A DNA stretch of 64,000 nt from Acidobacteriota bacterium (GTDB lineage Bacteria; Acidobacteriota; Terriglobia; Terriglobales; Acidobacteriaceae), in contig JAKAJO010000092.1 in assembly GCA_021813745.1 (NCBI GenBank), positions 1-64,000 of the forward strand, given 5' to 3'. The translations under genes were made by a program, and so were the position numbers. The stretch's first letter is position 1; every line of letters begins with the position of its first letter. This document shows positions 8,448 to 31,921 of the stretch, piece by piece. The notes beneath the pieces are model-generated. The model saw nothing but the letters and a program-made list of their open reading frames with translations. It did not search any database and was not told the DNA's origin.

Positions 8448-11400
8448 ATGGAGAGTGAAGAAGCCAGGGAAGTGAAGGAAGCGGCACGCGAGGCTTCTCC
8501 GTCTACGTGGTCTGCGCTGGCCGTGCTCGCGCTGGCGATGGCGGCCGGAGGTATTACTGCGCGACTCGAGGCCGGACCTCGCTTTGACTGGCTGCTGCTG
8601 ATGACCGCCATGGGCCTGACGGCGGCTGTGGCGATGCGCCTTCTTGCCGACAATGCTGCCGAGCGCGAAGCCGCGATGCGGTATGCGGGCGATCCATTCA
8701 AGGATCTTCTCGAATCGGCCGGGCCCATCATTTTGTCCATTGGGCTGGATGGGCGGGTGAATTACGCCAACCCTGCAGCGGAACGAGTCCTTGGATATCA
8801 CGCGGAGGAACTGGCGGAGTTGCGCGGAACCGGCGAAGTGCTGGGGCAGGGCGAGGCGGAACGGCTGGTGGCCGAGTTACAGCGTCAGTGCGGGATTGAG
8901 CGCAAAGTGGAGGATACTCCCGAAGCACGGATTGAGGCATATAAGGAGATTGTGCGTTGCCTGCCGCCGAGTCTCACGCCGGCGATTGATACACAGTTGC
9001 GCAAGAAGGACGGAAGTCTCGTGCCGGCGCGGCTGTTCATCTCCGCCCTGCGAAATCGTGACGGAGATCCCGTTGGTGTTGTGGCCGTTGCTGTTGTTCA
9101 ACAAGTGGTGGGACGTAAAGAGCTGCTGAAGCGCGAGACGCGTGATCGCTTCAGAGATGTCTTTGAGAACTCGAGCGAGATGATTGCGACGCTCGATCTG
9201 ACGGGCCGGTTTCTCTACGCGAATCCGGCATGGAAGCGTTGCTTTGGCGGAGCGGATGGATCGAGCGACCAGGAAGCCACGTTTGAAGAGGCCTTTGGAC
9301 CTGGAACCCGGCAGGATGCTGCTGCGCTGCTGCGGCGTGCGCTGAGTGGAGAGACAATTGACCGCGCACCCTTGCGGAACGAGAGCAAGGATGGCCATCT
9401 GGTGGAGCTGGAGCTGAGCCTGCACCAGCGCAGGCGCGCGGGCAAGGCCATGGCGGTTCAATGCCTGGCGCGCGATGTGACCCAGCAGAAGCGACGGGAG
9501 CAGCGGCTTGCTCTGCAGCTACTGGTGAGCCAGATTCTGGGAGAGAACCTCACCGCTGATGCGGCGGCGGTGCGTGTGCTGGAGGCGCTTTGCGTCTCGC
9601 AGGGTTGGGACATGGCCGTGAAGTGGGATGTGAACCAGGATGAAAAGCATCTGGAGTTCAGCGCGGCCTGGGGATTGCCGGGAGAAAACATTGAAGATCT
9701 GATTCAGAAGAGCATGGCTGTGCCATTGGGCCTGGGAGAAGAATTGCCGGGTCGTGCATGGAAAGAAGGCCGGCTGGTCTGGGTCACAGAACTTGGAGAA
9801 TTGCGTGGCAGCGCGCGGGCTCAGGCGGCCGTGGAGCGCGGCATGGTTACCGGCTGGGCCGCGCCGGTGCAGGTTGGCAATTCGATTCTGGCCGTGCTTG
9901 AGTTTTATAGCCATCTGCGAATGCGCGAGGATGTTGAGATTGATGCAACGATGGAGACGGTGGCTTCTTCATTGGGCCAGATGCTTGCCCGGACGCGCGA
10001 GCGCGAGCGCGCAGAGGAACTAAGCCGGCAGCAGAAGATCCTGTTGCACTCGGTCGCGGATGGAATTTGCGGAATTGACCGGAATGGATTAGTGCGGTTC
10101 GCAAACCCTGCGGCGACGCGACTTCTAGGTGCTCCCGCTGCGAGCCTGATTGGCAAGACGGCTCATGATCTTTTGCATGGCGCGGCGCCCGCGGGCAAGC
10201 AATGCGGTGAAGATTGCGCGCTCCGTCGAGCTGCCGCCCAACGCATGCCATCGACGGGCGAGAACACGATCTACAGGGCAAATGGCGCGGGATTCCCGGC
10301 TGAGTACTTCCTCAATCCGATCATGGACCAGGGGCGTTTTTCGGGCTCGGTGTTGAGCTTCCGGGATATCAGCCAGCGCTTTGCGCTGGACCGGCTGAAA
10401 GATGAATTTGTGTCCACGGTGAGCCATGAGTTGCGCACGCCGCTGACCTCGATCCGAGGTGCGCTGGGACTGCTGACATCGGGCATGCTCGGTGAGGTGG
10501 GCGAGAAAGCCACGAATCTATTGCGGATTGCCTTGACGAATTCAGACCGCCTGGTCCGGCTGATTAATGACATCCTCGATCTGGAGCGTGCGCAAGGTGG
10601 GCGGGAGCCTCTGGTCTTCCGATCTGTGCAACTCGCGGATCTGGTGCGACAGGCGATTGACGGCATGCAGCTGGTGGCGGAGCAGGCTGGTGTCATGCTG
10701 ATTCATGACAAGACGCAGGTTGAGGTGATGGCCGATCCGGACCGACTGCTTCAGGTGCTCACGAACCTGCTGTCGAATGCCGTCAAATTCTCGCCACCGA
10801 ACTCTGCGGTTTCGGTGATGCTGCGTCCTGGATCGAGCGGTGTCACCCTTGCTGTGATCGACCAGGGGCGCGGTATCCCGGCCGACAAGCTGGAGGCTGT
10901 TTTTGGAAGATTTCAGCAAGTGGATGCGTCGGACTCCCGTCAGAAAGGCGGCAGCGGGCTTGGACTGGCGATCTGCCGCGCGATTGTGACGCAGCACAGT
11001 GGCCGCATCTGGGCAGAGCGGAATCCATCACGCGGGTCGACCTTCCGGGTGTTCCTACCCTACCACCCGGCTGCAGCCGGCAAGCGGCCGGCGGGAAGCA
11101 TTGACTCGCCGGGGCAGGGGATGGTGTTGCTTGCAAGCGCAACCGTTGCGACGCGTCCAGTTCTGGGAGCTCAGCTGGCCGACTATGGTTACCGGATCGT
11201 CGAAACCGACACTGCCGAGCAAACGATCCATGCAGCACATGATGGCGTGGAGGCGATTGTCATTGACGGATCCTTTGCGAGCGCCAATGGATGGGAAGTG
11301 CTGCCGCAGCTTCGACGCACGAGTCCGGAGTCTCACACGCCGCTGGTGCTGCTGAGCCTTGATCATCACGAAGCGATACAGCATGACCCGTCCAACGGAG

Positions 11401-22642: not shown

Positions 22643-22743
22643 AACGGTGATTCAGGCTTGCAAAAGCGTGTTGCATGGCTCGAAGGCTAACTGCGATTGT
22701 TGCGTGCGGCAGGATTGGCCGAAGTATTTTTAGAGGAGGGAAT

Positions 22744-23898
22744 ATGGCAACCCAACGGCGGAGTACACCCAAACATATTTCAAATCCGATTCTGGATTCT
22801 ATTCCTGTGGGCGACCGTCGAATCCTTGACGAAGAGGCTTTCAAGCGGCTCATTGCGGTCGAGCGGAAGCGCACCGAACGGTCGCGAAATCCCTTTGTGT
22901 TGATGCTTCTGGAATATGAGAATCCGAATGGGTTGGCCAAGACGCAGGATGTTCTCGATAAGGCTGCCAGTGCGCTTCTTCAGGCCAGCAGAGATACCGA
23001 CACCATTGGATGGTATGCGAGCGGGCAAGTCCTTGGCGCCATGTTCACAGAGCTGCTTGTGAAGGATCGCGGAACCCTCTCAGCGACGTTAATGAAGCGT
23101 GTGAGCGCAGCACTGCGCGACGAGCTGTTGGATGAAGACTATGAAGGGATCAAAGTCACATTTCATTTTTTTCCGGATGAATGGGACCATAGCAGGGCGG
23201 GCACGCCAAGCAACGTGGCGCTTTATCCGGACCTCGTCGAGAAGAGTGAGCAGGATAAGCTTCGTCTCGTGATTAAGCGATCGATTGATGTCGTGGTCAG
23301 CCTGCTTGTTATCGTCTTGCTGTCGCCTCTATTCCTTCTGATTGCAGTAATGGTCCGCTTGACATCCAAGGGGCCGATTCTTTTTCGACAGCAGCGCGTA
23401 GGGCAGTTTGGTGAATGCTTCACCTTTCTGAAATTCCGGTCGATGTATTCAAACAATGATGCCAGTGTGCACAAGGAGTTTGTTACAGGGCTGATTCGCA
23501 ACCAGGAGAGTGGAGGCGCGAATTCCAGCGGACCAAAGCCCGTCTATAAGCTAACGAACGATAAGAGAATCACGCCCGTGGGTTCATTTCTTCGACGTAC
23601 GAGCCTCGATGAGCTACCGCAATTCTTCAACGTATTGAAAGGCGAAATGTCGCTCGTGGGTCCTCGTCCTCCGATTCCATATGAGCTGTCGGCATACCAG
23701 ACCTGGCATCGGAGAAGAATTCTGGAAGTGAAGCCAGGCATCACTGGACTATGGCAGGTGACGGGCCGCAGCACAGTCCGGTTTGACGAGATGGTTCGTC
23801 TGGATTTGCGGTACGCCATGAGCTGGACTCCCTGGCTCGATATCAAAATTCTTCTGCGCACGCCACTCGCCGTCATTCGCGGTTCAGGTGCATATTAA
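22744..23898 (+). CDS. Initiating undecaprenyl-phosphate sugar transferase with N-terminal GGDEF-like domain
   Basis: Transfers the first sugar-1-phosphate to undecaprenyl phosphate at the inner membrane. The C-terminal half (about 175-384) is a bacterial sugar transferase: hydrophobic helix KRSIDVVVSLLVIVLLSPLF, then GPILFRQQRVG, the KFRSM stretch, RRTSLDELPQ and MSLVGPRPP. The N-terminal part (about 25-150) looks like a diguanylate-cyclase fold with the catalytic motif gone (YASGQVLGAMF where YGGDEF.. would be), so it is probably a sensing or structural domain. Start at 22744 has a GAGGAGGG ribosome-binding sequence 2 nt away; the frame from 22675 does not. 384 residues. Confidence 0.88.
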   Translation: MATQRRSTPKHISNPILDSIPVGDRRILDEEAFKRLIAVERKRTERSRNPFVLMLLEYENPNGLAKTQDVLDKAASALLQASRDTDTIGWYASGQVLGAMFTELLVKDRGTLSATLMKRVSAALRDELLDEDYEGIKVTFHFFPDEWDHSRAGTPSNVALYPDLVEKSEQDKLRLVIKRSIDVVVSLLVIVLLSPLFLLIAVMVRLTSKGPILFRQQRVGQFGECFTFLKFRSMYSNNDASVHKEFVTGLIRNQESGGANSSGPKPVYKLTNDKRITPVGSFLRRTSLDELPQFFNVLKGEMSLVGPRPPIPYELSAYQTWHRRRILEVKPGITGLWQVTGRSTVRFDEMVRLDLRYAMSWTPWLDIKILLRTPLAVIRGSGAY

Positions 23899-24010
23899 GC
23901 AATCTGCGCTCTGATTTCCTCTAAAAAATAACTCAGCAAACAACCAAACCTGGGCAGACCGGGAGCACTGGGGAGCTTCATCTTCGCTGTGCGGGAAAGT
24001 GGGTATTTAT

Positions 24011-25009
24011 ATGAAATTTGGGGTAATCGGCTTCGGCTATTGGGGGCCGAATATAGTCAGAAATCTGATGAATCTGGAAGGGTCAGAGGTAACAGCAATT
24101 GCGGAGATTAGTCCGGCAGCGCGAAAGCGGGCGCAAAAGGCATATCCAGGAGTCCGAGTGATACAGGATGCGCATGAAGTCCTGCGCTCCGCGGACAATG
24201 ATGCAATCGCCGTCGTATCGCCTGTGTGGACCCACTATGAGCTTGCGAAGGAAGCTCTCGAAAACGGCAAGCATGTTTTTGTAGAGAAGCCGTTCACGGT
24301 GAGCCGCAGCCAGGGCGAAGAACTGATTGAGTTGGCGCAGAGGAAGAAGCTGATCATTATGGTCGATCACACCTTCCTTTTTACGGGCGCAGTGCGAAAG
24401 ATTGCACAATTGCTCGATGAAGGTTCACTTGGCAAGCTCTATTATTACGATTCGACTCGTGTAAATCTTGGGCTCTTTCAGCACGATGTGAACGTCCTCT
24501 GGGATCTGGCACCGCATGATCTCTCGATCATGGATCATCTCCTGCGCGCCAAGCCTGAAGCCATTGTGGCAACTGGCCAGGAACATCTCAATGGACATGA
24601 AGATATTGCCTTTATGACCCTGTATTTTCCGGACAAGGTTATCGCGCATATTAACGTGAATTGGCTGTCTCCCGTTAAAGTGCGCACCACGCTGATTGGT
24701 GGGGAAAAGAGGATGCTCGTCTGGAACGATCTTGAGGCAGACGAAAAAATCAAGATTTATGACAAGGGCATCAACATCACGAATCAGGAAGGCGTGTACA
24801 AGTTGCTTGTCAGTTACCGGTCGGGGGACATGTGGGCCCCGCAGCTGGAACAGGCTGAGGCCTTGCACCGGGAACTTACCTATTTCGTAGAGTGCGCATC
24901 AAGCGGGGTCGAGCCATTTAACAATGGGGAAGCCGGGCTTCGCGTCGTCAACATGCTTGAAGCAGCAAGCCGCTCCATGAAGCAGCGTGGCGCGCTCACC
25001 TATCTCTAA
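24011..25009 (+). CDS. Gfo/Idh/MocA-family nucleotide-sugar oxidoreductase
   Basis: NAD(P)-dependent oxidoreductase acting on a sugar or nucleotide sugar, probably making a keto intermediate for the aminotransferase downstream. Rossmann motif GVIGFGYWGPNIVRN at the N-terminus (residues 3-17), the family's EKP motif (HVFVEKPFTVS, about 92-102), and a C-terminal substrate domain with a HDVNVLWDLAPHDLSIM stretch. 332 residues, normal length. An alternative GTG start lies 12 nt upstream. With the next two genes it makes an amino-sugar module comparable to WbpB/WbpE-type 3-amino sugar synthesis (inference). Confidence 0.85.
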   Translation: MKFGVIGFGYWGPNIVRNLMNLEGSEVTAIAEISPAARKRAQKAYPGVRVIQDAHEVLRSADNDAIAVVSPVWTHYELAKEALENGKHVFVEKPFTVSRSQGEELIELAQRKKLIIMVDHTFLFTGAVRKIAQLLDEGSLGKLYYYDSTRVNLGLFQHDVNVLWDLAPHDLSIMDHLLRAKPEAIVATGQEHLNGHEDIAFMTLYFPDKVIAHINVNWLSPVKVRTTLIGGEKRMLVWNDLEADEKIKIYDKGINITNQEGVYKLLVSYRSGDMWAPQLEQAEALHRELTYFVECASSGVEPFNNGEAGLRVVNMLEAASRSMKQRGALTYL

Positions 25010-25083
25010 AGCGGCACACCCGCAAGCTTCCCTTCCGACGCATCTCTGCAACAAACCAAACAACAACTCCAAATGGGGGACCT

Positions 25084-25722
25084 GTGAAAGAAGTCATTGT
25101 CATGGGCAAGGGCAAGCTTGCCATCGAAGTATCGGAGTGCCTGCAACGATCCAATGGTTATCGCGTGAGCACCATTGTGCCGGTGATTCCTGAGCCGACT
25201 TGGACGGATTCCTTTGCAGGCTGGGGCCGTGCAAACAATGTGCCCGTGGTCGAATCCGGAGCATATAAAGACATACCTGCGCTTTCCGTTGGTGAGGGCA
25301 AACTGCCGCTGGTCATTTCGGTGTTCTACGACAAGATCATTAAGGGCTGGTTCATCGACCGATGCGAAAGAATCATCAATCTTCATAATGGACCATTGCC
25401 ACGCTACCGCGGCGTCTCACCGATTAACTGGGCTCTGAAGAACGAAGAGATCGAGCACGGCATCACCATCCACGAGATTACCGAGGGCATTGATGACGGT
25501 CCGATTATTGCTCAGCTTAAGTATTCCATCTATCCGCAGTTTGATGAGGTAATCGACGTCTATAAGCGGTCGCTAGAGTACGGAAGGATTCTGTTCGAAC
25601 AAACACTCCCCAACCTGGACCGCATACAGGCAAGAGAACAAGCGCACAACGAAGCGATCTACTTCTCCAAGAAGGACAATGTCCGGCTTGGCGATCGTGA
25701 AAACTTCACTCGACCGAAGTAG
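25084..25722 (+). CDS. Formyltransferase-family protein (probable sugar N-formyltransferase)
   Basis: Uses N10-formyl-tetrahydrofolate to formylate an amino group. The catalytic triad of the methionyl-tRNA formyltransferase fold is visible with the right spacing: Asn99 and His101 in NLHNGPLPRYRG and Asp137 in EGIDDGPII. 212 residues, so it has the catalytic domain only and lacks the C-terminal tRNA-binding domain of Fmt. This fits sugar N-formyltransferases of O-antigen and EPS clusters. GTG start with GGGGGA just upstream. Between an oxidoreductase and an aminotransferase gene, the likely substrate is a newly aminated nucleotide sugar. Confidence 0.83.
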   Translation: MKEVIVMGKGKLAIEVSECLQRSNGYRVSTIVPVIPEPTWTDSFAGWGRANNVPVVESGAYKDIPALSVGEGKLPLVISVFYDKIIKGWFIDRCERIINLHNGPLPRYRGVSPINWALKNEEIEHGITIHEITEGIDDGPIIAQLKYSIYPQFDEVIDVYKRSLEYGRILFEQTLPNLDRIQAREQAHNEAIYFSKKDNVRLGDRENFTRPK

Positions 25723-25801
25723 AAGTGCAGGCGATTCAGCGCCCGTCAGGCCCTGGTCCGCGCCAGGAACCGTCCAGAATGATGCAGCAATGGAGCTAAT
25801 T

Positions 25802-27061
25802 ATGACAGACCACTCTGAAATCCCATTCCTTGATTTAGTCACTCCCCATGAGGAGTTGCGTGATGAACTGACCACAATCTTCCATGACACCCTGCGGAGC
25901 GCAACCTTCATTGGTGGCAAAGCTGTTGAGAGATTCGAGGGAGATTTTGCTTCGTTCTGCGGTACCCGCCATGCAATTGCAATCAGCAGCGGTACGGATG
26001 CCTTGCGCTTTGCCCTCATGGCGAGCGGTGTAAAGCCGGGAGATGTTGTGATCACCGTTCCGCATACCTTCATTGCAACGACAGAAGCCATCTCGCAATG
26101 TCGGGCCATTCCGGAATTCGTCGACATCGACGAGACGACTTATAACATGTCGGTTGTCATGTTACAGCGCTTCCTTGAGATGAAGTGCATTCGCGATGAT
26201 TCCGGGTCTCTGATCAGCTTGAGGAACGGTCGGCCTGTGACTGCTATCGTGCCGGTCCATCTTTATGGTCAGATGGCGGATATGGATGGCATCATGGCGC
26301 TCGCGGACCAATTCGGATTGCGTGTGATTGAAGACGCCTGTCAGGCTCATGGCGCAGAGTACTATTCTGCAAAGCAGGCCCGCTGGCTCAAGGCCGGTTC
26401 GGTAGGGATGGCTGCAGCATTTAGCTTTTACCCTGGCAAAAATCTTGGTGCTTGCGGCGAAGGTGGCGCGGTCACGACGAATGATCCTGCCGTGGCGCAA
26501 AAGGTACGAATGCTGCGCGATCATGGACAAAGCGAAAAGTACTATCACGACATTGAGGGATACAACGGCAGGCTCGATGCCATGCAGGCAGGTTTTCTCC
26601 ACGCCAAGCTGCGGTATCTAGCGCAATGGAACAGCGATCGGGCGCGGCATGCGTCGGCCTATACGCGCGGACTCGAGAACGAGCAGACCATCGGGTGTCC
26701 AAGAGAAATGAAGGGATCGAAGCCGGTGTATCATCTCTATGTCATCCGAACAAGCGAGCGCAAAGCTCTCATTGAGTTTCTGAGGGCGCATAAGATTGGA
26801 ACCGGCATCCACTACCCAGTTCCGCTTCATCTGCAAAAGGCATATCGTTCGCTGAACTACTGCAAGGGCGACTTTCCGATCACGGAGGAGGTCGCAGGCG
26901 AGATTCTCTCTCTTCCGATGTATCCACAGCTGACAGAGGAACAGCGCGAGCGCGTCATCTTCACCATTCGAGCCTTTGTGGAAAAGATGTCCTGCGGCCC
27001 GATCACTGAACCGCATGTCGGCGTAATTCCTGCAGTGAGCCGCGTCATCACCGGCGTATAG
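25802..27061 (+). CDS. DegT/DnrJ/EryC1-family sugar aminotransferase
   Basis: PLP-dependent aminotransferase that aminates a keto-sugar nucleotide; cytosolic. About 419 residues. Features: IPFLDLVTPHEEL start, SGTDALRFAL cofactor loop, EDACQAHGA, and the internal aldimine Lys in FSFYPGKNLGACGEGG. An insertion of about 15 residues is seen after SVVMLQRFLEMKC (about 120-140) compared with typical members. The start at 25802 has GGAG six bases upstream; the frame open from 25679 overlaps the formyltransferase gene and has no family match. Confidence 0.9.
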   Translation: MTDHSEIPFLDLVTPHEELRDELTTIFHDTLRSATFIGGKAVERFEGDFASFCGTRHAIAISSGTDALRFALMASGVKPGDVVITVPHTFIATTEAISQCRAIPEFVDIDETTYNMSVVMLQRFLEMKCIRDDSGSLISLRNGRPVTAIVPVHLYGQMADMDGIMALADQFGLRVIEDACQAHGAEYYSAKQARWLKAGSVGMAAAFSFYPGKNLGACGEGGAVTTNDPAVAQKVRMLRDHGQSEKYYHDIEGYNGRLDAMQAGFLHAKLRYLAQWNSDRARHASAYTRGLENEQTIGCPREMKGSKPVYHLYVIRTSERKALIEFLRAHKIGTGIHYPVPLHLQKAYRSLNYCKGDFPITEEVAGEILSLPMYPQLTEEQRERVIFTIRAFVEKMSCGPITEPHVGVIPAVSRVITGV

Positions 27062-28125: not shown

Positions 28126-29031
28126 ATGAATGGATCCATCTCCCATATTGGCGTTTGCATCTGCACTTTCAAGCGGCCGGCCTTGCTGGAGCGACTGCTG
28201 GATGCGCTCGGCTGTCAGGAGACCAACGGCAAGTTCGCATTCTCGGTGGTGGTTGTCGATAACGATGCAGCGGGAAGCGCCAGAGAGGTTGTGGAAGCCA
28301 GCAGGAAGCGCGTTCCCATCGCGATTGCTTATCATCTGGAGCCGCGCCAAAACATTGCGATGGCGCGCAACCGGGCTGTTGCGGCATCGGAGGGATCTTT
28401 CATTGCATTCATCGATGACGATGAGTACCCGCCGCCCGGATGGCTCCTTGCCTTGTGGAGCGCAATCACGCGATTTGACGTGGCGGGCGTGCTTGGGCCG
28501 GTGGATCCTGAGTTCGAGTCTGGCGCTCCGGAATGGGTAAAGCGCGGAGGCTTCTTCGACCGCCCCACGCATCCTACGGGCATGAAGCTGGAGTGGCGCC
28601 AATGCAGGACCGGAAACGTGCTCTTCAGGAGGTCGATTCTCGAGGGGCTGGGCGAACCCTTCAATCCGGCATGCTTATCCGGTGAGGATCAGGACTTCTT
28701 CCGTCGTTGCATCGAACGAGGATGTGAGTTTGTATGGTGTCATGAGGCCGGCGTCCGCGAGTTTGTGCCACCGAGCCGATGGAAGCGCGGCTTCCTTGTT
28801 CGGCGTGCTCTCTTTCGCGGGATATTTGCGCAACGCAATCATGGCTTGCAGCCCCTACGTCTGGCTCAGGCTGTTGTGTCCGCGCCGATCTACCTGCTGC
28901 TCTTGCCCTTTGCGCTGATTCGGGGTGAGACGCAGTTTATGATCTGTCTTTTCAAGCTTTCGTATCATGCAGGTCGGCTCCTTGGATTGCTGCATATTAA
29001 TCCGATACGCCAGCCTTATGTTTCGAGTTAG
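28126..29031 (+). CDS. GT2-family glycosyltransferase
   Basis: Second GT2 enzyme. Motifs: GVCICTFKRPALLERLLDAL, VVVDNDAAGSAR, ARNRAVAASEGSFIAFIDDDEYPP (acidic motif near residue 105) and GEDQDFFRRCIERG. 301 residues with a hydrophobic C-terminal region (about 245-265). It is related in style to the preceding gene but not a close copy. It is followed by the tRNA-like element rather than directly by the next gene. Confidence 0.86.
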   Translation: MNGSISHIGVCICTFKRPALLERLLDALGCQETNGKFAFSVVVVDNDAAGSAREVVEASRKRVPIAIAYHLEPRQNIAMARNRAVAASEGSFIAFIDDDEYPPPGWLLALWSAITRFDVAGVLGPVDPEFESGAPEWVKRGGFFDRPTHPTGMKLEWRQCRTGNVLFRRSILEGLGEPFNPACLSGEDQDFFRRCIERGCEFVWCHEAGVREFVPPSRWKRGFLVRRALFRGIFAQRNHGLQPLRLAQAVVSAPIYLLLLPFALIRGETQFMICLFKLSYHAGRLLGLLHINPIRQPYVSS

Positions 29032-29056: not shown

Positions 29057-29147
29057 GGAGAGGTCGCCGTTGGCTAAGGCAGCGACCAGTTGACTGGTCG
29101 TGATGGGCTCGCTCATCCGGAGGTTCAAATCCTACCCCTCTCCGCCA
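29057..29147 (+). tRNA. Degenerate tRNA-Ser-like element (class II, encoded CCA)
   Basis: A 91-nt sequence folds as a class II tRNA. The acceptor stem GGAGAGG (29057-29063) pairs perfectly with CCTCTCC (29137-29143), followed by G73 and an encoded CCA. The D arm is GCC..GGC with a GG in its loop. A long variable arm (29102-29117) has six pairs. The T loop TTCAAAT is canonical. Abnormal points: position 14 is T; the anticodon stem CGACC/GGTCG encloses an 8-nt loop AGTTGACT (UGA readable only with an extra base) with C at position 37; the T stem has a G-A mismatch and one unpaired C follows it. G73 and the long variable arm indicate serine identity. It may be a relic, or a tRNA not used in decoding. 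It lies 32-59 nt before the FemAB-like gene. Confidence 0.55.
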
Positions 29148-29179
29148 ACCCACTTCATTCAGAATTTGGGAAGCGCTCA

Positions 29180-30079
29180 GTGGAAATTTGTGGTCAGTTA
29201 ATAAAGATGCGCGGCGGGTTCGTGAAGATCGCCCGTCTAGATGCAGATATGTTTCAGTTTCTGGATCAGCCGACCGAGCAGATTGATGCGGGCTTGGCTC
29301 AACTGAAGGGAAGAGCCGATCTCTTCACCTTTCTCCAGCGGCTGCCGGAGACGAAGCCGCTTTATCCGTATGCGATGGAGTGGGACAACTTTGCCGGGCT
29401 GGAGATCAGCACGTTTGAGAATTGGTGGACCAAGCAGATTGGATTCAAAGCCAGGAATAAGGCAAAGCAGGCAGAGAAAAAGGGAGTTGTGCTCCGTGAG
29501 GTCGATTTTTCCAGCGAGCTTGTTGAGGGCATCTGGTCCATCTATAACGAAACACCCATCCGGCAGGGGCGGCGCTTTCCGCACTTCGGAAAAAGTCTGG
29601 AAACGGTGTATCGGGAAGAGGCGACGTATCTCGATAGCAGCGTATTTGTCGGCGCATATTTCGATGCGCGACTGATTGGATTTATCAAGCTGGTCTTCGA
29701 TCAGACGCGGACTCAGGCCGGGCTGATGAATATTGTTTCTCTGGTGAGCCAGAGAGACAAGGCGCCGACGAATGCTCTGGTTGCAGCGGCCGTTCGAAGT
29801 TGCGCGGACCGTGGAGTCCGGTATCTCACCTACTCGCGATTTTCTTACGGTAAAAAGCAAACCGATAGCCTGAGCGATTTCAAGGAGCGCAATGCCTTTA
29901 AGCGGATCGATGTGCCGCGCTATTACATTCCACTCACCGCAAAGGGCAGGATTGCGCTCAAGTACGGCTTGCACCGTCCCTTGTCCGAGCAGGTTCCCGA
30001 AGCACTCGCGAGCCGTTTGCGCGATCTGCGTGAAGCCTGGTACCGGCGCAAAAACTCAACCGTGTATGAGGTGTCCTAA
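29180..30079 (+). CDS. FemAB/GNAT-like acyltransferase of the EPS locus
   Basis: Predicted cytosolic N-acyltransferase of the FemAB/GNAT superfamily, about 299 residues. FemAB proteins proper transfer amino acids from aminoacyl-tRNA to peptidoglycan precursors; related proteins of unknown function occur in exosortase-linked EPS clusters. Visible features: a helical basic stretch FKARNKAKQAEKKGV (about 87-101), IWSIYNETPIRQGR, GAYFDARLIGFIKLV (acyl-binding core) and RYLTYSRFSYGKK. Start uncertain: GTG 29180 has GGGAAG upstream, ATG 29207 is the next choice; a frame reaching 29090 would run through the tRNA-like element and is rejected. The asparagine-synthase-like gene follows after 6 nt. Confidence 0.7.
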   Translation: MEICGQLIKMRGGFVKIARLDADMFQFLDQPTEQIDAGLAQLKGRADLFTFLQRLPETKPLYPYAMEWDNFAGLEISTFENWWTKQIGFKARNKAKQAEKKGVVLREVDFSSELVEGIWSIYNETPIRQGRRFPHFGKSLETVYREEATYLDSSVFVGAYFDARLIGFIKLVFDQTRTQAGLMNIVSLVSQRDKAPTNALVAAAVRSCADRGVRYLTYSRFSYGKKQTDSLSDFKERNAFKRIDVPRYYIPLTAKGRIALKYGLHRPLSEQVPEALASRLRDLREAWYRRKNSTVYEVS

Positions 30080-30085
30080 GAGTTT

Positions 30086-31921
30086 ATGCCGGGCCTGGTA
30101 GGAATCATCACAACGCGGCCGCGAGAGTGGGCCGCCAGTCAGCTGCGCACGATGCACACAACGATGCTGCACGATCCCACCTACGCTACGGGGTTGTGGG
30201 AACATTCCGCTTCCGGCGTTTACATCGCGTGGACTGCGCGCAAAGGCTCCTTTGCCGCGCATATGCCCTTGCAGCAGGCGGGTAATGACGACGTTCTTTT
30301 TTTTGCCGGTGAGGAGTTCTCCGGACCGCTTTCGCCTGTCAGAAGACCCAACGGCAATGGTGCTGCAGAGGCCTTCATTCCCAACTATCTGCTTCAGCGC
30401 ACTGCCGACGACCCTGCGTTTCCGCGCAGTCTGAACGGGCGTTTTCATGGCCTTCTTGTCGACACCAGAAGGCGAAGTGCAAAGCTCTTTAACGACAGGT
30501 TTGGGATGGATCGGCTCTATGTGCATGAAGGTGCCGATGCGATCTACTTTTCAGCCGAGGCGAAGGCGTTGTTGGCGGTCCTGGCTGAGACGCGCCGGCC
30601 CAACATGCGAAGCCTTGGGGAATTCGTCGCTTGCGGCTCTATCCTTGAAAACAGGTCGTTGTTTGAGGGGATCCAGATTTTGCCGAATGGCTCGGCCTGG
30701 GAGTTTGAAGCCGGAAAACTGAGCACAAAAGGCTTCTACTTTGAACCGCGAGAATGGGAAGACCTGGGGAGCCTTGACTCGGATTCGTACTACGAGAGTC
30801 TCAGGGACGTATTTGCCAGGCAATTGCCTCGTTACTTTGAAGGGCCTGGGAAGGTCGCTATCTCCCTCACCGGTGGGCTCGACACGCGGATGATCATGGC
30901 ATGGGCGGGCCTGCCTGAGAACGCCCTGCCCACGTACACATTCGGAGGGCCGTTCAGGGAGTGTCATGATGTTCGCATCGCGCGCAAGATCGCTGAGGTC
31001 GCTCACCAGCCCTATCAAGTCATTCCGGTCGGCGATGACTATTTATCGAAGTTCGGGCAATATGCTGAGCGTGCTGTTTATTTGACGGATGGATCCGTGG
31101 CGGTCACACGCGGCGCAGATCTCTATGCCAATGAACTGGCAGCGCAGATTGCGCCGATACGACTGACGGGAAATTATGGAAGCGAAATCCTGAGGCGACT
31201 GAGAGCCTTCAAAGCCGGTACACCGAGTCCCGGACTTTTTACTCAGGAGTTCATGGCGTTTGTGGAGCAAGCGCACCAGACCTATCAGCGGATCTCCAGC
31301 GGACATGCAGTCTCGTTCACTGCGTTTCGGCAGGCGCCCTGGTATCAGTACAGTCTGCTTGCGTTGGAACAAACTCAGGTCTCAGTCCGCTCGCCTTTCC
31401 TGGACAATGAAGTGGTCAAAGTCGCATTTCAGGCGCCTGATTCCAGAATTGTGAAAAAAGACATCTTCGAGGACAGCGATCACTGCACGCGACTCATCGC
31501 GGATGGGGACAGTCGCTACTCTCAGATCCCAACCGACCGCGGCCTCGGAGGGCAAAGAGGCCTGCGTGGTGGGATGCTGCGCGCAATGCGAGAATTCAGC
31601 TTCAAGGCAGAATATAGTTACGATTATGGGATGCCTCAGTGGCTTGCCAGGACAGACCATCTCTTTTCGTGGCTCCATCTTGAGCGTGCCATTTTAGGCA
31701 GGCATAAATTCACTCATTTTCGTATTTGGTATCGCGACAAATTGGCTGGCTATGTGCGCGACATGCTCCTGGATTCTCGCAGTCTGTCCCGGCCATATCT
31801 GGAGCCTCGTGTTGTGAAGTCCATGGTGACCTCACATTTGCAAGGGACGGGGAATTTCACCACTGAGATTACACGGCTCCTCACGCTCGAGTTACAGCAT
31901 CGTCTCTTTTTTGACGTCTAG
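30086..31921 (+). CDS. Asparagine-synthase-like ATP-dependent ligase lacking the glutaminase Cys
   Basis: 611 residues with the two-domain layout of AsnB: an N-terminal Ntn-like domain (about 1-190) and a C-terminal PP-loop ATP-pyrophosphatase domain. The N-terminus reads MPGLVGI where AsnB has MCGI.G, so the nucleophilic Cys2 is a Pro and glutamine cannot be hydrolysed there. The PP-loop is LTGGLDT (about 261-267) instead of SGG.DS, still compatible with ATP binding. It may therefore activate a carboxylate for another amine, as beta-lactam synthetase-type relatives do. Asn-synthase-like genes beside FemAB-like genes are known from exosortase-type EPS clusters, but their reaction is not established. 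A T8 run lies at 30297-30304. Confidence 0.8.
   Translation: MPGLVGIITTRPREWAASQLRTMHTTMLHDPTYATGLWEHSASGVYIAWTARKGSFAAHMPLQQAGNDDVLFFAGEEFSGPLSPVRRPNGNGAAEAFIPNYLLQRTADDPAFPRSLNGRFHGLLVDTRRRSAKLFNDRFGMDRLYVHEGADAIYFSAEAKALLAVLAETRRPNMRSLGEFVACGSILENRSLFEGIQILPNGSAWEFEAGKLSTKGFYFEPREWEDLGSLDSDSYYESLRDVFARQLPRYFEGPGKVAISLTGGLDTRMIMAWAGLPENALPTYTFGGPFRECHDVRIARKIAEVAHQPYQVIPVGDDYLSKFGQYAERAVYLTDGSVAVTRGADLYANELAAQIAPIRLTGNYGSEILRRLRAFKAGTPSPGLFTQEFMAFVEQAHQTYQRISSGHAVSFTAFRQAPWYQYSLLALEQTQVSVRSPFLDNEVVKVAFQAPDSRIVKKDIFEDSDHCTRLIADGDSRYSQIPTDRGLGGQRGLRGGMLRAMREFSFKAEYSYDYGMPQWLARTDHLFSWLHLERAILGRHKFTHFRIWYRDKLAGYVRDMLLDSRSLSRPYLEPRVVKSMVTSHLQGTGNFTTEITRLLTLELQHRLFFDV

Follow-up and report, generated by a model that had tools for sequence, protein, structure and literature searches.

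A tRNA-Ser-like element without an anticodon loop as a putative seryl donor for a FemABX-like transferase in acidobacterial polysaccharide clusters

We examined 64,000 nucleotides (nt) from an Acidobacteriota bacterium of the family Acidobacteriaceae (contig JAKAJO010000092.1, positions 1 to 64,000), hereafter the window, and identified at 29057-29147 of its forward strand a 91-nt element with the cloverleaf of a class II tRNA-Ser, directly upstream of a gene for a predicted aminoacyl-tRNA-dependent transferase within a polysaccharide cluster. The structure and conservation of the element mark it as a selected RNA, and tRNAs of several amino-acid types accompany members of the same transferase family in other genomes. 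We consider it probable that the element is a dedicated, operon-linked seryl-tRNA donor for the adjacent transferase that is withheld from translation. The analysis as a whole rests on sequence and prediction.

A conserved class II tRNA shape without an anticodon loop

A first-pass annotation of the window, made from the sequence without database searches, had described a 91-nt class II tRNA shape with a 7-base-pair (bp) acceptor stem, G73, an encoded CCA, a six-pair variable arm, a canonical T loop and T at position 14, and each of these features was recovered (Table 1), with TTCAAAT as the T loop and U14 at position 14. Two further readings required revision. The anticodon arm is aberrant, as had been noted, but instead of an 8-nt anticodon loop it is better read as an 8-bp hairpin closed by a 4-nt loop (GCGACCAG/TTGA/CTGGTCGT). 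Similarly, the T stem is abnormal without being mismatched, since it can be fully paired over 5 bp if one base of its 3' strand is bulged, which leaves a tail of 17 rather than 16 nt. The minimum free energy structure given by RNAfold is the cloverleaf, at -39.6 kcal/mol, as compared to -30.46 +/- 3.41 kcal/mol for 200 shuffled sequences (z -2.68), 2 of which folded equally well.

With a decoding tRNA-Ser the element shares the class II cloverleaf, the 7-bp acceptor stem, G73, CCA and the long variable arm. It departs from one in having no 5-bp anticodon stem with a 7-nt loop and a serine anticodon, in the absence of A14, which ordinary tRNA-Ser sequences carry, and in a T stem that is bulged rather than a plain 5 bp. 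ARAGORN called zero tRNAs in the window, no Rfam family reached its gathering score on the element, and the general tRNA model (RF00005), run at E 0.001 on the window's own genome, did not list it. A run of ARAGORN had been among the checks proposed by the first-pass annotation. The tRNA-Sec model RF01852 matched weakly, at 22.9 bits against a gathering cut-off of 47, and a tRNA-Sec identity was rejected on that score. Elsewhere in this genome (G000), four weak matches to the general tRNA model at 35-40 bits were not called by ARAGORN and are possibly odd tRNAs (C29:30077-30148, C11:119464-119524, C81:16485-16556, and C130:2803-2866).

A search with the element's DNA alone, across 200 genomes of the same bacterial family, returned full-length matches in 6 further genomes, so that four genus groups are represented when the window is included; shorter matches elsewhere covered 19-31 query bases. 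Because these full-length homologues emerge from a DNA search alone, the element is not a product of chance. From the 7 Ser-type sequences, which were collected by element-DNA searches with no use of the transferase, we built a covariance model (R1). In the 200 family genomes it scored the seven carriers at 100-113 bits, followed by a match at 57.7 bits in genome G164 (locus L110) that is Ser-like, with a GCAA tetraloop and a 17-nt tail, and lies 1 kb from a distant transferase homologue. Part of the R1 matches at 51-61 bits were checked: thirteen other family loci at 51-58 bits proved to be ordinary tRNA-Ser, as did four loci at 60-61 bits among 297 genomes of the phylum, where the window alone exceeded 61.1 bits. 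A further match at 18.2 bits (L105) was discarded, as its cloverleaf fold is not formed.

Among 20 distinct elements of Ser type, standard pairs fill 98.4% of the pair cells, and changes on both sides of a pair (compensatory changes) occur at 9 pairs in 29 cells. On four of five measures none of 500 shuffles reached the observed value, and on the fifth 15 of 500 did so. The GCCA 3' end, the 17 nt after the T loop and the loss of A14 are each found in 20 of 20 elements, as opposed to a 16-nt tail and a T stem of five plain pairs in all 40 distinct ordinary tRNAs of the window's genome, which served as a control. The anticodon arms are hairpins of 8, 9, or 10 bp with a 4-nt loop, except for six that have 6 bp and an 8-nt loop starting at an A.C mismatch. 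Their loops vary (e.g. UUGA, CUUG, CUCG, AACU, and CAAA, among others), and no anticodon is conserved. As read by script, the hairpin arms span 20-24 nt in 18 of the 20 elements; in L040 and L155 the script picked poorer 16- and 23-nt pairings, for which the alignment gives the same 20-nt arm. ARAGORN called L159/L042 as tRNA-Ala, and called L146 and L110 without an amino acid. At one locus (L152) an intact Ser-type element (8713-8803) lies 1.2 kb upstream of the transferase, and a degenerate copy (9689-9774; 28.4 bits) occupies the usual site.

Association of tRNA elements with one transferase family

The transferase gene begins 32 nt (GTG 29180) or 59 nt (ATG 29207) past the CCA, exactly as first annotated, and encodes 290-299 residues depending on the start. 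The original call of a FemAB-like enzyme also agrees with the predicted fold, which best matches aminoacyl-tRNA-dependent transferases. An AlphaFold2 model built from 40 sequences (mean pLDDT 91.3, pTM 0.87) places a FemX/FemA/MprF-like GNAT fold over most of the protein. The top PDB matches in Foldseek were the aminoacyl-tRNA-dependent peptide synthases Sba18 and Sbb17 (E 6e-11 to 3e-10), followed by Weissella FemX (1xf8, E 1e-9) and MprF domains, while VIA-align gave Z 19.6 for Staphylococcus aureus FemX (6snr; 3.5 A over 240 residues), 18.9 for Sba18 and 17.6 for FemA. GNAT acetyltransferases ranked lower in both structural lists. Sequence identity in the structural alignments with known relatives is 8-16%, and a shared fold, here a predicted one, does not prove a shared reaction. 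Residue K226 is nearly invariant in the family and is a candidate equivalent of the catalytic Lys305 of FemX.

In all seven element-bearing genomes of the family sample, the transferase lies within the same polysaccharide cluster as the element. It directly follows the element in 5 of the 6 other carriers (60-67% identity); in the sixth, G177, the element is 10.2 kb upstream in the same cluster, after a DegT gene. Altogether the transferase was found in 26 of the 200 genomes, and 15 of these hold a close homologue (51-100% identity), of which 7 carry the Ser-type element. The expectation that the element would stay beside the FemAB-like gene in relatives therefore holds in part: one cluster with compensatory changes extends across four genus groups, and 8 of the 15 close-homologue genomes lack the element. 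Among the remaining 11 genomes, with homologues of 37-43% identity, 10 have a tRNA beside or near the gene (Thr 8, Asn 1, Ser-like 1). Genome G110 holds a close homologue and two distant copies, with nearby tRNAs for Thr and Cys.

A wider scan of the genome_contigs collection (84,980 species) yielded 136 relatives, of which the best 80 were taken. These best 80 of 136 loci come from Acidobacteriota and from records labelled Nitrospirae, Verrucomicrobia, Rokubacteria, Deltaproteobacteria, Methylobacter, Nitrosospira, and others, many of them metagenome bins whose taxon labels may be wrong. A Ser-type element occurs in 17 among these best 80 of 136 (75-113 bits), and others carry Thr, Gly, or Asn tRNAs. 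The record titled Acidobacterium sp. S8 (L133), a cultured strain, has the Ser-type element. Where a transferase is labelled with a Ser-type element (19 cases), the element lies 64-282 nt upstream in 16 and 1.2, 8.3, and 10.2 kb upstream in the other 3.

The tRNAs of these loci are concentrated at the transferase gene. Across 102 distinct loci (1.76 Mb, duplicate contigs removed), 24 of 25 ARAGORN tRNAs fall within 500 nt of a transferase, a zone that makes up 10.8% of the sequence (for uniform placement, and with kinship ignored, binomial P 1.4e-22). As a control we took 30 of the 54 TIGR03019 matches listed in the same bacterial family, 9 of these 30 being over the curated cut-off; at these loci there was no ARAGORN tRNA within 1.5 kb, and scores with R1 and with the Thr-type model described below were at most 16.3 bits. 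A few weak hits of a home-made scanner lay at a distance from the transferases, and another fell in a control locus (L314, score 13.5); we attribute all of them to chance.

The tRNAs partnering the distant homologues are mostly of Thr type, with Gly, Asn and Cys types also present. Our Thr-type set comprises 19 elements, two of them from locus L198 (10907-10982 and 11070-11145, in tandem after one transferase gene), and it excludes L195 as too divergent. In 18 of the 19 the T stem attains five pairs only with one pyrimidine bulged, the unbulged register giving 3-4; moreover, L203 backs the bulged register with an A-U pair in place of the G-C or G-U of the others. Ten of the 19 have a base other than U at position 33, and a D-loop GG is present in 6 (absent in 13), as compared to the ordinary tRNAs of the window's genome, of which 38 of 40 have U33 and all 40 have the GG; there the two U33 exceptions are ARAGORN calls of tRNA-Val(CAC) with A33 and tRNA-Pro(GGG) with G33 (L227, L260). 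G35-U36 is retained in 18 of the 19; threonyl-tRNA synthetase reads tRNA positions 35 and 36. The exception (L199:10944-11018) combines a Gly anticodon with the scaffold and T-stem bulge of the Thr type, so that its amino-acid identity seems to have switched. At L114 (8395-8468) a Cys-type tRNA lies on the opposite strand near the transferase, with an anticodon loop (CGGCAAA) that by eye has G for U before the anticodon.

In 11 of 18 Thr-type loci the transferase reading frame enters the tRNA gene, in 10 of them in one shared frame (L113, L115-L120, L126, L130, and L211) and at L190 in another; the tail of the protein would therefore be encoded by the tRNA gene, and processing of the tRNA would cut the mRNA. 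A Thr-type covariance model (R2) was built from transferase-adjacent elements, which makes its top matches partly circular, and was run on 56 transferase loci. In the 200 family genomes it gave 9 matches of at least 86.5 bits, all beside a transferase, with the next at 80.3 bits and below, and in the 297 phylum genomes the sole match at E 1e-18 was also beside a transferase; given how R2 was built, this result shows only that close look-alikes do not occur elsewhere.

We labelled a tree of 103 transferases with the nearest element found, after removal of duplicate contigs and 7 short transferase fragments: 19 Ser, 1 Ser-like (L110), 16 Thr, 2 Gly, 2 Asn, 1 Cys, 1 odd, and 61 with none. The labels are clustered, with 22 changes against a shuffled mean of 39.2, on a tree whose bootstraps had not settled. 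An element is present for 19 members of a 27-member clade of distant homologues, and none was found for 49 of the 70 members of the window's clade. This distribution implies that the tRNA was gained, lost, or switched in identity more than once. One transferase copy at L190 takes its Thr label from a neighbouring copy's tRNA, and a Ser-type element also lies 9 kb upstream there.

Proposed donor role and alternatives

We propose that a tRNA-Ser-derived RNA is cut from the polysaccharide operon transcript and that ordinary seryl-tRNA synthetase (SerRS) would charge it with serine via the acceptor end and the long variable arm, which are the identity features of SerRS. The enzyme does not recognise the anticodon, according to a passage of PMC7609411, and because it does not read this part of the molecule, the Ser type could lose it. 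With no anticodon loop the element cannot decode. Moreover, the T stem is altered at the place where EF-Tu binds, in Ser and Thr types alike as far as their sequences tell, and the bulge probably lowers EF-Tu binding. Between them, these two properties would reserve the charged element for the neighbouring GNAT-fold (FemABX/MprF-like) transferase, which may then transfer the seryl group onto an amine in the polysaccharide or in a precursor. That amine probably belongs to an amino sugar, as the genes of the cluster appear suited to amino-sugar synthesis and the structures of Sba18 and Sbb17 were determined with streptothrisamine. What the data show is the structure of the RNA and how it is conserved, its association with the gene family, the T-stem defects common to the Ser and Thr types, and the fold match; that the element is transcribed and processed, charged with serine, kept from EF-Tu and used by the enzyme, and what the acceptor is, we infer.

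Many relatives of the enzyme have a Thr-, Gly-, Asn-, or Cys-type tRNA as their partner, and the linked tRNA would on this account fix the donor amino acid. We lean towards the broader view of a modular system, in which a private neighbouring tRNA would set the installed amino acid and a swap of tRNA would change the product. Here the Ser type would shed its anticodon loop, the Thr type would keep G35-U36 but often lose U33, and bulged T stems would bar both from translation. In its simplest form the account is that transferases of this family depend on aminoacyl-tRNA and have donor tRNAs of their own. The elements retain what a synthetase needs and shed what decoding needs. If this is true, the linked tRNA would predict the amino acid that decorates polysaccharides of soil bacteria, the elements would show what becomes of a tRNA that is released from decoding, and they would represent donor RNAs free of competition with translation.

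A dedicated donor was also the proposal of the first-pass annotation, most of whose checks turned out in its favour, and it gains support from the linkage, the predicted fold, the other tRNAs beside homologues, and the ordinary tRNA-Ser(UGA) that accompanies the element in most carriers. Several observations weigh against it. In the 8 close-homologue genomes without the element, R1 gave no match above the level of tRNA-Ser and an Rfam scan of the transferase loci found no tRNA. Similarly, for the 61 of 103 transferases labelled as having none, the flanking DNA retrieved, truncated in some cases where a contig stops, yielded no element. These homologues probably use ordinary aminoacyl-tRNA, or a tRNA that the tools do not see, and the ordinary aminoacyl-tRNA pool could accordingly serve the enzyme. 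The T-stem bulge is missing from one Thr-type element (L210), and the Gly tRNA at L183, the Asn tRNA at L109, and the Cys tRNA at L114 have plain five-pair T stems; the Ser-like L110 retains A14, unlike the Ser type. Finally, sequence searches of Pfam, NCBIfam and PDB returned generic GNAT models and weak matches for the transferase. At E 0.01, TIGR03019 matches 3 of 40 family members and LPG_synthase_C 1 of 40, and neither model matches the window transferase; the enzyme type was decided by the fold search.

An alternative that gives the element no donor role at all is a processing or regulatory device, whereby RNase P and 3' trimming cut the transcript or an uncharged tRNA senses the supply of an amino acid. 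The position of the element within operon-like gene rows would suit such a device, as would the Thr-type overlaps, where a cut would part the mRNA from the tRNA. We nevertheless think it unlikely, since it leaves unexplained why nearly all tRNAs of the loci adjoin the transferase, why amino-acid identity features persist, and why the 30 FemAB-like control loci are free of tRNAs. That the charged element serves a different enzyme of the cluster, or carries an amino acid other than serine, is distinctly unlikely. The asparagine-synthase-like protein would be one such enzyme, its gene following that of the transferase at 5 of the 6 other element-bearing loci of the family, and the G177 element, after a DegT gene and 10 kb from the transferase, could be taken in the same sense. 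However, it is the transferase gene itself that Thr-type elements adjoin or overlap, and the aminoacyl-tRNA-transferase fold belongs to the transferase.

The first-pass annotation had offered a plain relic of an integration event as the alternative. The 3' ends of tRNAs are common attachment sites, and the rejection of the element by ARAGORN and Rfam, together with the degenerate second copy in L152, would accord with an integration relic or by-product at a tRNA-Ser gene, or with a decaying pseudogene. Several genera, however, retain the whole element with compensatory changes, the gene rows around it are operon-like, differing tRNA types stand beside the same gene family, and there was no integrase among the 17 cluster proteins scanned, all of which makes such an origin very unlikely. 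A decoding tRNA-Ser is hardly credible. The window's loop does contain UUGA, and a tRNA-Ser(UGA) did not turn up in either G061 or the window's own genome, both incomplete assemblies (the latter is 92.3% complete and has tRNA-Ser GGA, GCU, and CGA), from which one might suppose that the element replaces it. Homologue loops nevertheless read CUUG, CUCG, CAAA, and others on arms of varying length, and 5 of the 7 carriers (G177, G070, G119, G162, and G071) have an ordinary tRNA-Ser(UGA) of their own, and so do not need the element for decoding.

Gene cluster and comparison with known systems

The element and the transferase are set among polysaccharide genes on the same strand (Table 1). In 4 of the 6 other family loci the element is likewise preceded by a homologue of the glycosyltransferase (47-58% identity), and further genes of the cluster encode glycosyltransferases, O-antigen-ligase-like, MBOAT and flippase-like proteins, and a deacetylase. 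In place of the formyltransferase-like gene of the window (25084-25722), G177 has a different gene (L038:5583-6083; by eye a hexapeptide-repeat-like acyltransferase), so that the sugar modification may differ between relatives.

Table 1. Coordinates of the element, its parts and neighbouring genes in the window
Feature	Position	Strand	Basis or remark
tRNA-Ser-like, non-decoding element (whole)	29057..29147	+	sequence, fold, DNA search, covariation
Acceptor stem, 5' strand GGAGAGG (partner 29137-29143)	29057..29063	+	5 of 7 pairs invariant in 20 distinct elements
D arm, 3-bp stem GCC/GGC; U14 and U15 in place of A14/R15	29066..29080	+	
8-bp hairpin with tetraloop UUGA replacing the anticodon arm; 20 nt against the usual 17	29082..29101	+	fold, compensatory changes
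Long variable arm, 6 bp	29102..29117	+	fold, covariation
T arm GGAGG TTCAAAT CCTACC; 5-bp stem, bulged base in 3' strand	29119..29136	+	
Acceptor stem, 3' strand, with G73 and encoded CCA	29137..29147	+	GCCA in 20 of 20
GNAT-fold FemABX/MprF-like transferase, proposed user of the element	29180..30079	+	start GTG 29180 or ATG 29207
Family 2 glycosyltransferase	28126..29031	+	stop codon 25 nt before the element
Asparagine-synthase-like protein	30086..31921	+	directly 3' of the transferase
Sugar transferase, Gfo/Idh-type dehydrogenase, formyltransferase, DegT aminotransferase	22675..27061	+	probably the amino-sugar section of the cluster

Among the titles and abstract openings listed by literature searches, a scope outside which most subscription journals fall, we found no earlier description of such an element, and the main text of a review (PMC12945691) has 0 occurrences of "tRNA gene" and 0 of "dedicated". 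The predicted fold of the window transferase resembles those of the FemABX enzymes and of the peptide synthases Sba18 and Sbb17, with which it has little sequence similarity (8-16% in structural alignments). TIGR03019 (pepcterm_femAB) proteins of XrtA/PEP-CTERM systems are likewise FemAB-like and occur in the same bacterial family; unlike the present loci, the 30 examined have no ARAGORN tRNA within 1.5 kb, and only 3 of 40 present members match that model.

The allo-tRNAs, some of which occur in Acidobacteria, are likewise tRNAs of Ser type that show SerRS features together with atypical arms, as set out in PMC7609411. Their acceptor branches are described there as 8/4 or 9/3, their anticodons are genuine, and some of them function in translation in Escherichia coli. 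The Ser type in our analysis instead joins a 7-bp acceptor stem to a 5-bp T stem with a bulge, and has neither an 8/4 or 9/3 acceptor branch nor a 7-nt anticodon loop.

A close parallel is found in Staphylococcus, where, according to PMC4052509 and PMC8007984, non-proteinogenic tRNA-Gly copies that feed FemXAB and bind EF-Tu weakly are linked to cell-wall bridges, and where the weak binding is ascribed to an altered T stem (PMC4052509). In both systems tRNA copies with an altered T stem are proposed to be set aside for FemABX enzymes, and the replacement of G18-G19 in the staphylococcal copies, as those papers present it, has a counterpart in the 13 of 19 Thr-type elements without a D-loop GG. 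The systems differ in that here the tRNA is in most cases linked with the transferase gene or embedded in it, within polysaccharide clusters, the Ser type has no anticodon loop, the T stem is changed by a bulge and not by weaker pairs, and several amino-acid identities are found.
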